Below, piece by piece: positions 6,117 through 13,262 of a DNA stretch of 64,000 nt; within the stretch, counting starts at the first letter, position 1, and the number at the start of each line of letters is the position of its first letter. Source of the stretch: Acidobacteria bacterium 28-9. GTDB taxonomy: Bacteria; Acidobacteriota; Blastocatellia; Pyrinomonadales; Pyrinomonadaceae. The stretch covers positions 1-64,000 of the forward strand of contig MWYY01000052.1 of NCBI GenBank assembly GCA_002050355.1, written 5' to 3'. Position numbers and translations under genes: made by a program. The notes beneath the pieces are model-generated. The model did not search any database, had not been told where the DNA came from, and saw only the letters and a list, made by a program, of their open reading frames with translations.

Positions 6117-6146
6117 AGGGCGATTCAAATTGGGTCGCCTTATTAC
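6117..6146 (+). terminator. Hairpin terminator after pckG
   Basis: GGCGA (6119-6123) pairs with TCGCC (6135-6139) around a loop containing TTCAAATTGGG, followed by TTATTACTTT. The loop resembles that of the terminator at 7253-7287, so the two may share an origin. Confidence 0.6.
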
Positions 6147-6366
6147 TTTCAGAATTAGAGTATGAATGCACAAGAATTAATAATTTCTGTCTACTTAAAT
6201 CAATGAATTGTTTTCGAACTTATTTCGATGTTGCAAGATGGAGTGAAAATTTTAATAATCGAAGACCGCAGGCGAGTTTATAAAAGGTTGAAGCGAAGAT
6301 AAATCAAAAAATTTTGCTTCACTAAACTTAGCTACTTGCATAAAGTTTTAGCAGTCAAATAAAGGC

Positions 6367-6873
6367 ATGAATAAACACAAAATTAAAGCCAAACGAAAAC
6401 TTTTGCAGAAAATTGATAAAAGATACATCGGTTTTCATGTTTATCGCTCGGTGAATGAAAATCTGCCTTTCATGTTTTGGGAAAGGTTGACGGATGAGCC
6501 AATTCATGACGGGAATTTCAATGACCAAGCCGACGAAATCGGTCAGCGATATTATTACAAGCTCACACAGGTTGACGCCAACGGTAGTGAAAGCGCACCG
6601 ATTACGCCGAAAAGCACTTTTACAGATCATGTCGGAAATACTTTCGCGCAAAATCCGCTGGTTGATTTTGCCGGTTATAATATTTACCGCTCCGCCGACA
6701 AAGACGTGCCGCTCGACCAATGGGAACGGCGCAACAAAGAACCGCTGCCGACTACGGAATTTAAGGATGAAGGCGTTGAATCAGGGGAGATTTATTTTTA
6801 TTATGTGCGCGCCGTTGATTCTAAAGGAACAGAAAGTGCGCCTGCTGAAGTTGTTCGGGTCATTAGAAAATAA
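6367..6873 (+). CDS. Small protein with two fibronectin-III-like repeats
   Basis: The 168 residues contain two copies of one unit: GFHVYRS...WERL...YYYKLTQVDANGSESAP (about 21-78) and GYNIYRS...WERR...YFYYVRAVDSKGTESAP (about 105-158). The pattern, with a conserved Tyr-Arg near the start and a D-x-x-G-x-E-S-A-P end, is that of fibronectin type III-like modules. There is no signal peptide; the first 20 residues are very lysine-rich. Its partner and function are unknown. Upstream, 6147-6366 holds nothing I can identify. Confidence 0.65.
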   Translation: MNKHKIKAKRKLLQKIDKRYIGFHVYRSVNENLPFMFWERLTDEPIHDGNFNDQADEIGQRYYYKLTQVDANGSESAPITPKSTFTDHVGNTFAQNPLVDFAGYNIYRSADKDVPLDQWERRNKEPLPTTEFKDEGVESGEIYFYYVRAVDSKGTESAPAEVVRVIRK

Positions 6874-6984: not shown

Positions 6985-7014
6985 TTGACAACCACGTTTG
7001 CTTTCGCGTAATCT
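6985..7014 (+). promoter_or_regulatory. Promoter of the putative structured RNA
   Basis: TTGACA (6985-6990), an 18-base spacer and TAATCT (7009-7014) predict transcription starting near 7021. The next terminator is at 7253-7287 and no gene lies between, so this promoter appears to drive a free-standing RNA. Confidence 0.6.
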
Positions 7015-7036
7015 AAAACTCGGAGGTGATAGATAT

Positions 7037-7084
7037 ATGATAAAAAATTCAATCGAAACACCACCGGACTTTAGTAATCGGTAA
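7037..7084 (+). CDS. Possible 15-codon leader peptide
   Basis: ATG at 7037, preceded by an unusually strong GGAGGTGAT ribosome-binding site seven bases away, opens a 15-codon frame (MIKNSIETPPDFSNR) ending TAA. It lies at the very 5' end of the putative RNA at 7021-7287. It might be a translated leader, or the purine-rich motif may simply be part of the RNA fold. Neither can be settled here. Confidence 0.25.
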   Translation: MIKNSIETPPDFSNR

Positions 7085-7252
7085 GCCCGAAAAGGCGAGC
7101 CGGAAAAGACCGGAAGGTTATAAAAAATCCAGTTGCGGTTGGCAGCGAGGCGTTGATGACAAGGAAAGTGTTGGTGGCGAAAAGTAGTGATACTCTAATC
7201 AGCGTTTTCAGTTTCTCCGGCTAAGTTGTCAAAACCGAACTGATCGAATAAC

Positions 7253-7287
7253 AAGGACGATTCAAATTTGAGTCGTCTTTGTTTTTT
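7253..7287 (+). terminator. Terminator of the putative structured RNA
   Basis: GACGA and TCGTC arms enclose a TTCAAATTTGAG core, and the hairpin is followed by TTTGTTTTTTT. This is a good intrinsic terminator and defines the 3' end of the 7021 transcript. Confidence 0.8.
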
Positions 7288-7379
7288 TGCGCAAAAACTT
7301 TTCGGCAAAACTTTGCCCTCTTAAATTTGATTGGTTATAGTATTGTATACCTCTAAAATTATATCTGAGGAGTTTACCG

Positions 7380-7796
7380 ATGGAACGATATTTGGGAAGG
7401 TTTGAACCATATGCTTACGCTATTTTTAGAATTATTGCCGGGTTTTTATTTATGTGGCACGGAACGCAAAAGCTGTTTGGTTTTCCGCCGAGCAATCAGC
7501 CTGCGCAACCTTTAAATACAATGATGGCGACAGCCGGAACAATCGAGTTTGTTTGCGGGTTATTAATTTTGCTCGGACTTTTCGCCGGTTTTGCCGCTTT
7601 TCTGGCAAGCGGTTTGATGGCGGTCGCTTATTTTATGGCGCACGCTTCGGGCGGTCTTCTGCCGCTCGTCAATCGCGGCGAGCTGGCGGTGCTTTTCTGT
7701 TTCGCTTTTCTTTATATCGCCTCGCGCGGTTCGGGTTTGTTAAGTCTTGATTCGCTCATCTTCGGCGGCAGAAATTCCACCCGTGCCGCTAGGTAA
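7380..7796 (+). CDS. DoxX-family membrane protein
   Basis: 138 residues with four membrane segments. The N-terminal FRIIAGFLFMWHGTQKLFGFP and the mid-protein GTIEFVCGLLILLGLFAGFAAFLASGLMAVAY are typical of DoxX/SURF4-like proteins, a family linked in some bacteria to oxidative-stress or thiosulfate-oxidising complexes. The TGAGGAG ribosome-binding site stands seven bases before ATG. The BI-1 gene follows 94 bases downstream in the same direction. The precise role is unknown. Confidence 0.85.
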   Translation: MERYLGRFEPYAYAIFRIIAGFLFMWHGTQKLFGFPPSNQPAQPLNTMMATAGTIEFVCGLLILLGLFAGFAAFLASGLMAVAYFMAHASGGLLPLVNRGELAVLFCFAFLYIASRGSGLLSLDSLIFGGRNSTRAAR

Positions 7797-7890
7797 AGGA
7801 TATAAAACGAAATACAAATATTTTGCATCTAAAACTGCAAAACGGAAATTCTACCGTCAGCAGTATTAATGAATTTTTTGAGGTAAAGAT

Positions 7891-8607
7891 ATGAACACAA
7901 CTTACGACGATTTCAGAAACGGCTCTTCGGTAGCTGAAGCTTTGCCTGAAGAGCGCGCTGGTTTCATACGCAAAACTTACGCTCACTTAGCTGGAGCGGT
8001 TTTGCTGTTTGTTTTAATGGAAACGTATTTGGTTGCGTCCGGCGCAGGTCTTTGGATTGCGCGCACGATGCTCGGTGGGAGCTTTTCGTGGTTTATCGTG
8101 TTGGCAGCATTTATGGGCGTCTCATTTCTGGCTCAGTGGTGGGCTAATTCGCAGACTTCAAAGCCGCTGCAATATATGGGTTTGCTGCTTTTCACGGTTG
8201 CTGAAGCGATAATTTTTCTGCCGCTTCTGTTTATGGCAAGCAGCCGAAGTAATAGCTCGCAGATTTTCGGGCAAGCCGGAATTATCACGCTCGGACTTTT
8301 TGTCGGACTGACGGCGGTTGTTTTCTTTACGCGCAAGGATTTTTCGTTTCTGGCGCCTATTTTGACAATCGGCGGTTTCGTCGCACTCGGCTTTATTGCC
8401 GCTAGTCTGTTGTTCGGGTTCACTTTAGGCAATTTGTTTGCATTTGTGATGGTTGCGTTTGCAGGCGGCGCGATTTTGTATGATACGTCAAACGTTCTGC
8501 ACCGTTATCGCACCGACCAGCATGTTGCGGCTTCGCTTTCGCTCTTTGCCAGCGTCGCTCTGCTTTTCTGGTATGTCTTAAGAATTGTTATGGGTTCGAG
8601 AAACTAA
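7891..8607 (+). CDS. Bax inhibitor-1 / YccA-family membrane protein
   Basis: 238 residues; a soluble start (to RAGFIRKTYAHL) followed by seven hydrophobic segments, with the family hallmarks AGGAILYDTSNVLHRYRTDQHVAAS near the end. Bacterial BI-1/YccA proteins are inner-membrane proteins, some of which act as proton-sensitive calcium leak channels or bind the FtsH protease. No FtsH gene is nearby. The AGGTAAAGAT start region is weakly Shine-Dalgarno-like. Confidence 0.88.
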   Translation: MNTTYDDFRNGSSVAEALPEERAGFIRKTYAHLAGAVLLFVLMETYLVASGAGLWIARTMLGGSFSWFIVLAAFMGVSFLAQWWANSQTSKPLQYMGLLLFTVAEAIIFLPLLFMASSRSNSSQIFGQAGIITLGLFVGLTAVVFFTRKDFSFLAPILTIGGFVALGFIAASLLFGFTLGNLFAFVMVAFAGGAILYDTSNVLHRYRTDQHVAASLSLFASVALLFWYVLRIVMGSRN

Positions 8608-8930
8608 ACGAATTTAATTATATTTTCTATTTGCGGGGTGAATATTTAAAAAGATGTTCATTCCGCATTTCTTTTGCCGAATATTAATTTTATCCTTTCG
8701 AAAGTTGGAAAAATAAACCACTCACCGGTTTTGGATTCTTTAAGTATTTTCATACACGCAATTTCTCTACTTTGTTCTCAATCGAAATGTGATATTATTC
8801 AATCTGTAAAAATCGCGTACGAATAAACGAATTCGAGTGCAAGGCTCTTTTCTAAAGCGTTCTTTGGTTCTTCTCAAGTTTTTACTACGCAAAATTGAAT
8901 CTTAAACTCTACGCTTTGTGACGAAACTGT

Positions 8931-9013
8931 GTGTTATCCGCAAAGATGAATCGGATAATTCAACACCCCTAACAAAGTCCAAAATACTTTGGCAGCGTTC
9001 GAGCAATGGGGTG
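8931..9013 (+). promoter_or_regulatory. Possible structured leader of the radical-SAM gene
   Basis: The 434-base gap 8608-9041 has no ORF. Its last part can form three interlocking stems: TTATCCG/CGGATAA (8934-8958), CAAAGT/ACTTTG (8973-8991) and CACCCC/GGGGTG (8964-9013), the last enclosing the second. The right side GGGGTGAT looks like a ribosome-binding site but lies 28 bases before the ATG, and no better site is closer. A regulatory fold is possible; cobalamin and SAM riboswitch consensus elements were looked for and not seen. Confidence 0.35.
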
Positions 9014-9041
9014 ATAATCTTTTTTACACATCGAAAAATTT

Positions 9042-10604
9042 ATGAAAATTTTACTTTATAATCCCGACAACGGTATTACGCGCAATTTTATGCCGCATTT
9101 GTGGATGTTTCTCCTGCAAGCTCTGACACCGAAAGAACACGAAGTAATTTTGATTGACGGCAACGCCAAAGCGATGACACGCGAAGAACTTGTCCAATTC
9201 TGCAAAGATGAAAACATCGGACTGGTTGGCATCGGCTCGATGACCAGAATGGTTGCGCGCGCCTATCACGTGGCGGACGCTTTGCGAGAAGCAGGAATAA
9301 AAGTGGTGATGGGCGGACCGCACGTTACCGAATGTCCCGACGAAGCGCTCGGAAGAGACGGAGGTAAAAGGCACGCCGATGCGATTGCTTTAGGCGAAGC
9401 CGACGAAACTTGGGCTTTAATGGTCGAAGACGCTGCAAGAGGTCAATTAAAAGACATTTATCAACCCGAAATTGACCCGAAAGGCAACGACAAAAAACCG
9501 AATCTTCAGCCGTATCCTCATATTCCCTGGGAAACTCTTGATTTAGACCAATTCAGTCTTGTTCCTTCGTTTTTGAAACCACATTTGGCAAAAATGGGCG
9601 AAGGCTGGGGAAGTTTTCACGTCGTTCCGATTGAAACCGGACGCGGCTGTCCATATGGCTGCGAGTTCTGCACAGTTACCGGATTTTTCGGCGATTCGAT
9701 TCGTTTTCGCACAAACGAAAGCGTCATCGAAGAATTGCTCAGATTAAAAGCACGCGCCAAACGCGAACGCGGTCAAATCGCCGTTTTCTTTATTGACGAC
9801 AATCTCGCCATCAACAAAAAGCGCGTTAAATCTTTATTGAGAGATATGATTGCGGCTGGCGCGCAAATTCCGTGGGTTGCGCAAATCAGCGCAAATCTAC
9901 TCGGCGATGAAGAACTCGTTGACCTGATTGCCGAATCAGGCGGTAAATGGGTTTTTATCGGAATGGAATCGATCGACCCGCAGAATATGGCGTCAGTCAA
10001 CAAAAATTTCTCGAAGCCTGCGGATTACAAGGAAGTTCTGGATCGCCTTGCAAAAAGAAATATTTACGCAATTACATCGTTCATTTTCGGAATGGACAAC
10101 GATACCGAAGGCGTCGCCGCGCGCACGGTCGATGAAATAGAAAGCTGGTCGCCCGGTCTTCCCGTTTTCGGACAGTTAACGCCGTTTCCGGCGACGCCGC
10201 TTTACTCGCGTCTTGAAAAGGAAGGCAGATTGTCACGTCCGAAACACTGGCTGGAATTCGCGCCGTTCGTAATGGCGCACACGCCATTGAAAATGACTAT
10301 TGATAGAGCGAGCGAAGAAACAAGATATGCCTGGTCGCGCTCTTACAGCCCGGAAAGAAACGCGCAGGCGCTCGAAATGATAAAGGATTCGCCGCTGCAA
10401 TATCGCCTCAGCCACTTGGTTTCGCGCCTGTTCTTTCGCGGCATTTATTTTCCGCAAATGCGCCGCCGCGATTGGGCAAAAATGATTCTACAAAACCGCA
10501 AACCGATTTACGGTCTAGTAAAAGAAGGTTTTTCGAGTTACCGAAACGCAAAGCGAAACAAAAAAACTCAGGTTGTTGCGCCATCTTCGTTTCAAGCGGA
10601 ATAG
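9042..10604 (+). CDS. B12-binding-domain radical SAM protein
   Basis: 520 residues. The first about 140 form a Rossmann-like cobalamin-binding domain (MKILLYNPDN..., GLVGIGSMTRM, KVVMGGPHVTECPDEAL). The radical SAM core follows with the cluster motif CPYGCEFC (Cys203, 207, 210), a later FFIDDNLAINKKRVKSLL block and the TSFIFGMDNDTEGVAARTV segment. Such enzymes use SAM and a [4Fe-4S] cluster, often with methylcobalamin, for methyl transfer or rearrangement on lipids, hopanoids, pigments or peptides. The neighbours give no clue to the substrate. Ribosome-binding site is poor (see 8931-9013). Confidence 0.85.
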   Translation: MKILLYNPDNGITRNFMPHLWMFLLQALTPKEHEVILIDGNAKAMTREELVQFCKDENIGLVGIGSMTRMVARAYHVADALREAGIKVVMGGPHVTECPDEALGRDGGKRHADAIALGEADETWALMVEDAARGQLKDIYQPEIDPKGNDKKPNLQPYPHIPWETLDLDQFSLVPSFLKPHLAKMGEGWGSFHVVPIETGRGCPYGCEFCTVTGFFGDSIRFRTNESVIEELLRLKARAKRERGQIAVFFIDDNLAINKKRVKSLLRDMIAAGAQIPWVAQISANLLGDEELVDLIAESGGKWVFIGMESIDPQNMASVNKNFSKPADYKEVLDRLAKRNIYAITSFIFGMDNDTEGVAARTVDEIESWSPGLPVFGQLTPFPATPLYSRLEKEGRLSRPKHWLEFAPFVMAHTPLKMTIDRASEETRYAWSRSYSPERNAQALEMIKDSPLQYRLSHLVSRLFFRGIYFPQMRRRDWAKMILQNRKPIYGLVKEGFSSYRNAKRNKKTQVVAPSSFQAE

Positions 10605-10606
10605 TA

Positions 10607-10677
10607 AAAAACTAGTAATAAAAAACCAAAAGTGATAAATAATTAACAATTATTTATCACTTTTAATTTTCACTAGA
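10607..10677. repeat. Heptamer-type repeat with perfect hairpin between convergent genes
   Basis: A 17-base perfect inverted repeat (10628-10644 with 10648-10664) separates the convergent radical-SAM and xseB genes. It may act as a terminator in both directions, since both arms end in A- or T-runs. Words aattatt, tatcact, tttaatt, ttcacta continue the seven-base register seen elsewhere. Confidence 0.65.
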
Positions 10678-10978
10678 AAGGTGATTCGTCGTCTGTATCG
10701 AAAGCAATGCGGCGTTTGATTTTCGGTTCGGTTTGTTCACTTCGTAAATCTTCCGTTTTGATAACTTCCAGCATCGGATTGCCGTCTGTGTCTTTCATCA
10801 AAATCTCGATTCTCCGCTCGGCTTGGTTTAATCTTTCCTGACACTGGCGAGAAATTTTCACGCCGTCTTCAAACAGTTTAAGGCTTTCTTCCAAAGACAA
10901 ATCACCGTTTTCCAGATTGCGGACTATTCGTTCGAGTTCCTGCAAACTTGCTTCAAATGTTTTCTGTTTTTCAGCCAT
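10673..10978 (-). CDS. xseB: Exodeoxyribonuclease VII small subunit
   Basis: 101 residues; [44 protein letters not shown] is the helical XseB signature (residues 7-51). XseB binds XseA to form exonuclease VII, which degrades single-stranded DNA to oligonucleotides. The C-terminal 35 residues are a polar tail beyond the usual core. It is the last gene of a leftward group with xseA, separated from it by a membrane protein gene whose stop is three bases upstream. Confidence 0.93.
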
Positions 10979-10981
10979 AAA

Positions 10982-11770
10982 TTATTTGAAAACTTCATCG
11001 AGTTGTTTTAGTACTTCACCCAAATTCTGCACGCCAAACTGTTCGCCTGCCTTTTGAATTCCGCCTTTATTTGCAACGGTGATAATCTGCTGCCCGACTT
11101 TTTCCGCAATTTGCCTTGCTAATTCTTCATCTTTGACGCCGACAACCTGCCATTTATCGCCGCTACTGCGTTTCAATGTCAGATTCAGTTGGCGTTCCTG
11201 TAATTTGCTATTGATAAATGCTTTATCGTTCTCGGAAGTGATGTCCACATATCTGTCCGCGCCGAGCGCAATAGCCCAAAACGGAACTTTATCAAATTTC
11301 TGCGTTTTTTCACGAATAAGATTGGGAATTTCCTGTCGCGCACGAAGTTTGACTGTGGACATAAGGGGCGCGGCGACTCGCTCGATTTTAGCAAGAGTTG
11401 CGGGCGGCAAACCTCTGCCGTAAAGCTCTACGGCTTTGCCGGTAATCTGCGGCATAAAATCGTCAACTACCGCATTAGTATCAACCAATTCTTCAACCGT
11501 TTTTCGGTCGTCTCGCCGCGCCGCGTCAACCAGCAGAGCGAGTGAATACTGTGGAGTTTTTTTCAAATTTTGCCAGTAAAAATAACCGCCGACTGCGCCG
11601 ACAAGCAAAATCAAAACAAGCACCATTGCCAAAATGCCGAGAACTTTAGTGAAAACACTGCGCTTTTTCGGTTTTTGATAACCTGAAAATTCGGGCGCGC
11701 TCGCCATTTTCGGCACGTCTGTTTCTATAACTTTTTGTGATTCTTTCAAATCAATTGCAAATTTCGACAT
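10982..11770 (-). CDS. Single-pass membrane protein of unknown function
   Basis: 262 residues: a cytosolic basic N-terminus, one membrane segment (about 43-67, VLGILAMVLVLILLVGAVGGYFYW) and an outside domain of about 190 residues containing ARRDDRKTVEELVDTNAVVDDFMPQI. No named family is recognised by eye; the domain resembles DUF2939-like extracytoplasmic domains in general layout only. It lies between xseA and xseB, an odd place for a membrane protein, and is probably co-transcribed with them. Confidence 0.6.
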   Translation of the reverse strand: MSKFAIDLKESQKVIETDVPKMASAPEFSGYQKPKKRSVFTKVLGILAMVLVLILLVGAVGGYFYWQNLKKTPQYSLALLVDAARRDDRKTVEELVDTNAVVDDFMPQITGKAVELYGRGLPPATLAKIERVAAPLMSTVKLRARQEIPNLIREKTQKFDKVPFWAIALGADRYVDITSENDKAFINSKLQERQLNLTLKRSSGDKWQVVGVKDEELARQIAEKVGQQIITVANKGGIQKAGEQFGVQNLGEVLKQLDEVFK

Positions 11771-11847
11771 CTCTTTATAGCGAGCGTTAAGGAAACGAGC
11801 AGAAAATTCCGAAGTTCCGATGTTTAAACTGAACGTTGAGCCTTAAA

Positions 11848-11886
11848 ATTTTGCAATTGCTCGCCGCTCATTGCTCGTTGTTCACT
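11848..11886. repeat. Heptamer repeat at the 3' end of xseA
   Basis: Words caattgc, tcgccgc, tcattgc, tcgttgt, tcacttc run across the xseA stop. The last residues of XseA (NNEQ) are therefore written in repeat DNA. Confidence 0.6.
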
Positions 11887-13262
11887 TCCGAAACCTTCGC
11901 TTTTAGTTTGCCACACGCGAGAAGGATTTTCACACTGTCGTTTACTTTTACCTTTTCAGCATCGCGCAAAATCTCGCCCGCATCCGTTTGAACAATTGAG
12001 AAACCGCGTTTCAAAACCGAAAGCGGCGACAGCGCGTCGAGCGATGCCATTTTAATTTTCAGCTTTTCTTCTTTCTCGTCAATCGCGTCCTTGATTGCCG
12101 ACCTTTGTTTTTGCCGCAACAGCGCAAGGCGTGTTTTCTTTTCATTCAGCTTTGAAGCTAGTTTCAACGGTGAGATTCGATTGGTCAAAGTTACCAGACG
12201 TTGCTCTTTATTTTTGATTTCTTCGCTCACGGCATCGCGCATTTGCACCTGAAAATCTTCAATTTCATAACGCCAATCTTTGATGCGCTGCGGAAACTCG
12301 GTGAAAACTGAAGACAAGGCGAAAGCCTGCAAGTCCGAGCGCGATTGCAGCATTTTGTAATCAATCAACTGCAATAAATCCTGCGTTTTCTGAAAGATAA
12401 ACGCTTCGATTTGGTCTTCCGATTCGGCGACGATTTCGGCGGCGGCAGAAGGTGTCGGCGCGCGTCGGTCGGCGACAAAATCGGCAATTGTAAAATCAAT
12501 TTCGTGTCCGACGGCGGAAATTACCGGAATCAATGAGGCGCGAATAGCGCGCGCAACAGTTTCTTCGTTAAATGCCCACAAATCTTCAGCAGAGCCGCCG
12601 CCGCGCCCGACAATTAAAACATCGAATCTCTCAGTTGTTTTCGCTGTTCGGTTAAATTGATTGGCAAGTTTTATCGCGTTCGTTATTTCGTCTCCGGCGG
12701 TTTCGCCCTGCACGCGAGTCGGGATTAAAGTAATGTGAACCGACCGTGTGCGGCGCGAAAGAACATTCAAAACATCATGAAATGCCGCGCCGTTCGGCGA
12801 TGTTACAACGCCGACGCGATGCGGGAAAAACGGCAGATCGCGCTTTAACTCTTCGTCAAATAAACCTTCTTTGAAAAGTTTCGCTTTGATTTGCTCGAAA
12901 GCAACCTTCAGCGCGCCTTCGCCGACCGGCTGCAGCGATTCAACCAAAATCTGATATTCGCCTTTCGGTTGATAAACGCTGAGCTTTCCGCGCACGCGAA
13001 CCTGAAGCCCGTCAAACGGCTGAAAACGAATTCGTGAATTACTGCGAACGTAACAAGCAGCTTTCAACTGCGAAGAACCGTCGTGCAGCGTGAAATACCA
13101 ATGTCCGGAATTTGCCGCGACAAAATTGACAATCTCTGCTTCAATCCAAACAGACGCGAAATTTTTCTCAAGCGCGCCTTTGACCTGCTCGTTCAGTTCG
13201 GAAACCGAAAGCGGTCGGCGCTCTTCTTCATCGAAAAGAGAATTTAGAAGCGAAGGTTTCAT
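11868..13262 (-). CDS. xseA: Exodeoxyribonuclease VII large subunit
   Basis: Catalytic subunit of exonuclease VII, which removes single-stranded DNA from both ends. The 464 residues show the N-terminal OB-fold (FASVWIEAEIVNFVAANSGHWYFTLHD, about 35-61), the catalytic domain with RVGVVTSPNGAAFHDVLNVL and the signature GRGGGSAEDLWAFNEE near residues 218-233, and SAVGHEIDFTIADFVADRRAPTPSAAAE. A coiled-coil region and a C-terminal LKRGFSIV motif follow. Length is usual for the family. The final residues fall in heptamer repeat DNA. Confidence 0.95.
   Translation of the reverse strand: MKPSLLNSLFDEEERRPLSVSELNEQVKGALEKNFASVWIEAEIVNFVAANSGHWYFTLHDGSSQLKAACYVRSNSRIRFQPFDGLQVRVRGKLSVYQPKGEYQILVESLQPVGEGALKVAFEQIKAKLFKEGLFDEELKRDLPFFPHRVGVVTSPNGAAFHDVLNVLSRRTRSVHITLIPTRVQGETAGDEITNAIKLANQFNRTAKTTERFDVLIVGRGGGSAEDLWAFNEETVARAIRASLIPVISAVGHEIDFTIADFVADRRAPTPSAAAEIVAESEDQIEAFIFQKTQDLLQLIDYKMLQSRSDLQAFALSSVFTEFPQRIKDWRYEIEDFQVQMRDAVSEEIKNKEQRLVTLTNRISPLKLASKLNEKKTRLALLRQKQRSAIKDAIDEKEEKLKIKMASLDALSPLSVLKRGFSIVQTDAGEILRDAEKVKVNDSVKILLACGKLKAKVSEVNNEQ

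Follow-up and report, generated by a model that had tools for sequence, protein, structure and literature searches.

Whether the structured RNA that lies in front of doxX in the soil bacterium Acidobacteria bacterium 28-9 acts on that gene or stands on its own, and to which class it belongs, is the question raised by positions 7021-7288 of the window (the whole analyzed stretch of 64,000 nucleotides), a compact transcription unit in which a promoter is followed by a structured RNA and then by a strong terminator. Sequence comparison supports a conserved, structured and coding element, hence a new family of RNAs, of either the translated-sRNA or the leader-peptide kind. The explanation that we favor, with about an even chance of being right, is a free-standing translated (dual-function) structured sRNA of Pyrinomonadaceae, where ribosomes on a short ORF would remodel the 5' fold. 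The features referred to below are the following.

6985-7014, + strand: promoter, with -35 box TTGACA (6985-6990), 18-nt spacer and -10 box TAATCT (7009-7014)
7022-7030, + strand: extended Shine-Dalgarno sequence GGAGGTGAT, agreeing with the complement of the 16S tail over 9 contiguous bases
7037-7084, + strand: 15-codon ORF, MIKNSIETPPDFSNR followed by TAA, of the same length in 12 of 12 copies
7025-7062, + strand: helix P1, Shine-Dalgarno GGTG (7025-7028) with CACC of codons 8-9 (7059-7062)
7064-7113, + strand: helix P2, codons 10-12 CCGGACTTT (7064-7072) with AAAAGACCGG (7104-7113)
7078-7103, + strand: helix P3, TCGG (7078-7081) with CCGG (7100-7103), enclosing the stop codon, here with a GCC/GGC extension
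7129-7241, + strand: rod-like 3' domain, identified by covariation, swap tests and the match to model R2
7136-7144 with 7227-7237, + strand: helix P4
7164-7174 with 7199-7209, + strand: helix P6
7183-7186 with 7191-7194, + strand: helix P7, part of the rod-like 3' domain
7250-7288, + strand: intrinsic terminator, a hairpin of 15 pairs (7250-7283) followed by T's

The promoter, the strong terminator and the structured character of the RNA, all read from the letters in the initial annotation, are borne out. The TTGACA box is found in 11 of the 12 homologous loci and the -10 box, as TANTCT, in 10 of them, the sequence being TAATTT in G031 and the arrangement different in G023 (alignment and inspection by eye); the TTGACA/TAATCT promoter was not among the hits of a promoter scanner that required at least 9 of 12 matches. 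A terminator-like hairpin occupies the corresponding position in all 11 aligned copies. The predicted folding energy of 7021-7300 is -84.6 kcal/mol, compared to -64.6 +/- 4.8 in 200 shuffled sequences, none of which was as stable (z -4.15, in part due to the terminator). Similar terminator hairpins (GGCGAYTC...GARTCGCC) are repeated at 6118-6150 and 7250-7283 of the window, at L003, L014, L025 and L033, and past the FN3-like gene of G003. Since they recur in these genomes, a terminator match alone does not identify a homologue of the RNA.

Full homologues were found in 12 of the 162 genomes searched in the class, all of them Pyrinomonadaceae. The covariance model of the 5' domain (R1) yields 12 strong hits among these 162 genomes (E 4e-15 or better), the rest having E 0.0029 or worse, and in the phylum-wide set of 396 genomes strong scores are confined to Pyrinomonadaceae. 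The model of the 3' domain (R2) finds the same 12 family genomes, G000 having two copies, and gives a doubtful match in G138 (E 7e-5), which was rejected, as the 5' part is absent and no Shine-Dalgarno sequence with a TPPD-encoding ORF is seen by eye. Such a combination was likewise not seen by eye at any of the 11 places with weak R1 matches (E 0.0029-0.083) or in G411 (E 7e-4). Four further weak places were given by R2 (E 0.010-0.086). The Shine-Dalgarno plus ORF pattern matches in 10 of the 162 class genomes and in 9 contigs of the species-wide GTDB set, titled Pyrinomonadaceae, Acidobacteria or Acidobacteriota; this pattern misses copies with Asp for Glu, and the window's own record is possibly outside the GTDB set. 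There is no sign of phage origin, phage records giving no match and viral contigs none to the strict pattern.

A DNA search revealed a 13th copy in the same assembly, which is 72% identical over 222 nt and is cut off by the end of contig C90. Beside this second RNA copy there is a second block of doxX, Bax1-I, xseB and xseA (G000:C90:1-7964, L055, compared with window 7380-13262), and because of this second set, C90 is possibly the sequence of a contaminating related species binned into the assembly.

The scan for known families agrees with the earlier statement that the RNA could not be placed in any of them. At the gathering threshold, none of the Rfam 15 covariance models matches in the window, and at E up to 10 only chance-level matches appear, such as eukaryotic snoRNA and miRNA models, or one sRNA model with 9.9 bits against a cut-off of 533. 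Acido-1 (RF01686) and Acido-Lenti-1 (RF01687), whose comparison had been proposed at the outset, are described as candidate free-standing structured RNAs from Acidobacteria (PMC2864571) and are alike in this respect, but their models are absent among the matches to the RNA at 7021-7288 at E up to 10. The part of the literature looked through on structured and small RNAs of Acidobacteria and on small RNA of Pyrinomonadaceae contained nothing that describes this RNA, which does not prove its absence from print.

Two features of the 5' part point to translation. The run of matches to the anti-Shine-Dalgarno sequence is 8-11 nt in all 12 full copies; it is at most 7 in the 38 window ORFs of at least 150 aa, and among 80 ORFs in other contexts a single one reaches 8 or more, although the best of several starts was used for these control ORFs, which favors them. 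The 16S tail behind this comparison is the one that we assume for the host, whose own sequence may differ. Each of the 12 full copies then has ATG, 14 codons and a stop codon, TAA (10 copies), TGA (1) or TAG (1), with the consensus M-x3-S-x-[ED]-T-P-P-D-x3-R-stop. Ser5, Thr8, Pro9, Pro10, Asp11 and Arg15 are invariant, position 7 is Glu or Asp, position 6 is Ile, Val or Asn, and codons 2-4 and 12-14 are variable.

Substitutions and indels in the ORF follow a coding pattern. In the 12 copies, variable columns at the first, second and third codon positions number 5, 6 and 13 of 14 each (hypergeometric P 0.0009 for the third-position excess, with columns treated as independent), and there are no indels within the 45-nt ORF, against several in the flanks. 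The coding frame ranks first among six frames by the mean BLOSUM score of differing codons (1.48 versus 0.17 +/- 0.53; 4 of 300 column shuffles as high), followed by an antisense frame (27 of 300), in a test that covers only 45 nt with coding and pairing constraints on the same bases. Hence, the remark in the initial annotation that no ORF exceeds 15 codons is literally true and yet misleading, because a conserved peptide of 15 residues is very probably encoded by the RNA, the ORF at 7037-7084 being the key feature, kept in 12 of 12 copies. By these patterns the RNA appears to be translated.

The same codons take part in the 5' fold. P1 has a predicted pair probability of 0.51-1.0 in all 12 copies and is almost invariant; as it hardly varies, the hiding of the Shine-Dalgarno sequence by pairing to codons 8-9 is a prediction of the folding model. 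Codons 10-14 pair downstream, and their partners change together with them. Native P2 pairs average -6.85 kcal/mol, compared to -5.05 kcal/mol for swaps between species, and none of 5000 permutations was as good (kinship ignored). In G063 and G061, a synonymous CCG to CCA change is answered by C to T across P2, and the Arg codon change CGG to CGA is answered across P3, where 2 of the 8 aligned copies have A-U in place of G-C, with both strands changed. In alignment A2, used for the 5' structure count and comprising 8 of the 12 copies, the covariation score is positive (2 of 500 shuffles as high), and the number of doubly changed pairs is a modest two (108 of 500 shuffles as high).

Two other pairings were considered. 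That of codons 8-10 (CACCRCC) with a 3' GGYGGTGG was rejected as the main fold, its predicted probability being 0.173 in G061 and no higher than 0.013 in any of the remaining 11 copies. An alternative pairing between the 3' strands of P2 and P4 was matched by 40 of 5000 permutations, where three control pairings gave 2539, 545 and 1423 of 5000; it is weak in the copy at 7021-7288 and is treated as a lead only, because it was chosen post hoc.

Covariation in homologues, suggested initially as a check on the RNA, is present in the 3' domain as well. The 13 copies have 27 doubly changed cells, compared to 12.4 +/- 2.6 in shuffled alignments (0 of 500 as high; kinship uncorrected), and 18 at best when the domain is slid by 1-3 columns. 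P4 and P6, like P2, are supported by swap tests (for each, none of 5000 permutations did as well, kinship ignored), and P5 more weakly (488 of 5000). RNAalifold on an unrefined MAFFT alignment of 11 copies recovered fewer of these helices; of its 31 pairs, 8 are doubly changed in at least one sequence, and about five of these 8 are in the terminator. The GTGA tetraloop reported earlier does exist at 7187-7190, in a stem AGTA/TACT, but it is not a conserved feature, since homologues carry other loops.

A very short mRNA, with the 15-residue peptide as its product and the RNA structure only tuning translation and stability, is a possible, though doubtful, explanation of these data. It accounts for the coding signal and the extreme Shine-Dalgarno sequence, and the sequence conservation of the ORF region is above that of most of the 3' domain. 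However, some 165 nt of covarying structure past the stop codon is much for a 48-nt ORF, and inspection by eye shows no obvious signal or membrane segment in the peptide.

The free-standing translated sRNA, preferred here, has by sequence its own promoter and terminator and no link to one downstream gene, and computationally its ORF is conserved as a coding sequence, as in dual-function sRNAs. The very strong Shine-Dalgarno sequence would let the 30S subunit open P1, and a ribosome on the 15 codons would melt P2 and P3, freeing their 3' strands, so that translation would set the conformation and stability of the RNA. Provided that the predicted fold is correct, any ribosome on the ORF must open P1-P3, and thus translation and folding should be coupled. 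At the invariant Thr-Pro-Pro-Asp core the ribosome may be slowed, since PPD is a known EF-P-dependent pause motif, repeatedly found among such pauses in E. coli (PMC4140641). In the same source, significant pausing in an efp mutant was seen for only 2.8% of PPX motifs (PMC4140641), so PPD alone is no proof of a pause; the conserved tripeptide is a possible pause site. The RNA, the peptide, or both may then act in trans on targets, as no conserved gene lies directly downstream (see below).

A stand-alone ribosome-pausing sensor, rather unlikely in our estimate, would go further: a stall at TPPD at low EF-P activity, or equally under other conditions slowing proline incorporation, would keep P1-P3 open and leave the Shine-Dalgarno sequence and the 3' strands of P2 and P3 exposed. 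The RNA with its conformation so switched would act in trans, not on a gene in cis.

The genomic context bears on the relation to doxX. The element has on one side a gene for a 168-residue FN3-like protein (6367-6873; E 0.035 with Pfam fn3, under the cut-off) and on the other doxX (7380-7796; Pfam DoxX), and the syntenic order is PEPCK, FN3-like gene, element, various genes, Bax1-I, xseB, xseA. Of the 13 loci, 11 have Bax1-I downstream in the same orientation (the contig ends in G070, and the part of G068 that was read does not show it). The FN3-like gene likewise stays near the RNA in 11 loci, lying upstream in 9 (including G023) and downstream in G063 and G020; it was not seen at G061 or at the incomplete G000b. 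In G001, from the same genus, 233 nt without the element separate the FN3-like gene from Bax1-I, representing an empty site, and in G002, G003 and G006 the element is absent from the stretches read beside the FN3-like gene or Bax1-I. This syntenic placement, together with the absences, suggests inheritance of the unit at a fixed place, with some lineages lacking it.

A cis-acting leader-peptide attenuator or riboswitch for the gene past the terminator (here doxX) is unlikely on these grounds, even if ribosome-dependent attenuators usually consist of a short ORF, competing helices and a terminator and doxX is indeed the next gene in three loci (G000a, G004 and G000b). Unsystematic inspection showed no antiterminator. 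The first downstream gene is an FN3-like one in two loci and other genes elsewhere, with the terminator always between it and the RNA in the loci seen; thus, the conserved cis-regulated gene of an attenuator is lacking, and for a riboswitch there is neither a conserved gene directly downstream nor a match to a known aptamer model. The variable downstream gene and the same-genus empty site argue against a leader for doxX, so that, of the two options left by the initial annotation, the independent structured transcript is supported and the riboswitch-controlled leader is not. Moreover, the gap between the terminator and doxX contains TTGCCC-N17-TATAGT (7313-7341), and the TATAGT box, shared by G000a and G004, may belong to a separate promoter of doxX.

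Leader-peptide RNAs are known as cis switches. In mgtL, a proline-dependent regulatory leader, a very short ORF has prolines beside acidic residues near its start, as in the element, but mgtL precedes the gene that it regulates, and the element has no conserved gene directly downstream. Closest in kind is rnTrpL/peTrpL of Sinorhizobium meliloti, described as a small terminated RNA with a 14-residue ORF and trans roles for both RNA and peptide (PMC7298713). It shares with the element the small terminated RNA with a very short ORF, while rnTrpL is the attenuated trpE(G) leader with the ORF at the 5' end of the RNA (PMC7298713), and the element has no conserved directly downstream gene, an extreme Shine-Dalgarno sequence and no Trp codons. 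The peptide-encoding dual-function sRNAs described in PMC5521070 are likewise small RNA genes with a selected short ORF; the peptide considered here, with prolines beside acidic residues, looks soluble, unlike a membrane or type I toxin peptide, and the same bases serve both the ORF and the RNA helices. These 45 bases appear to combine a conserved peptide, predicted sequestration of their own ribosome-binding site and covarying helices. A leader-peptide-like RNA without a conserved gene directly downstream would help to show if short ORFs serve trans-acting RNAs, and this new family from a poorly studied phylum is small enough for complete testing, the roles of RNA and peptide being separable by simple mutants.

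A noncoding RNA with an accidental ORF, whose Shine-Dalgarno-like segment would be a decoy for ribosomes or an anti-SD-like partner, is quite unlikely. The Shine-Dalgarno match far above that of ordinary genes and the ORF codons doubling as helix strands would suit it, but not the 45 nt free of indels in 12 copies with several indels in the flanks, nor the third-position bias and the stop codon kept as TAA, TGA or TAG. A diverged 6S RNA or other known housekeeping RNA, suggested by the rod-like 3' domain, is almost certainly a wrong assignment and was rejected, given the lack of Rfam matches, including that of the 6S model RF00013 at 7021-7288, and the 6S candidate of the same genome on another contig (G000:C51:138039-138250, E 1e-7, slightly below the family cut-off).

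The 3' domain also contains a GTG-started 18-codon frame (GTG 7168 to TAA 7224), which was rejected as a second ORF. Frames of this type are shortened or startless in G030, G069, G026, G063 and G031 (by eye), and the frame is probably accidental, being kept in some close relatives, with similar frames in G004, G000b, G070 and G068.
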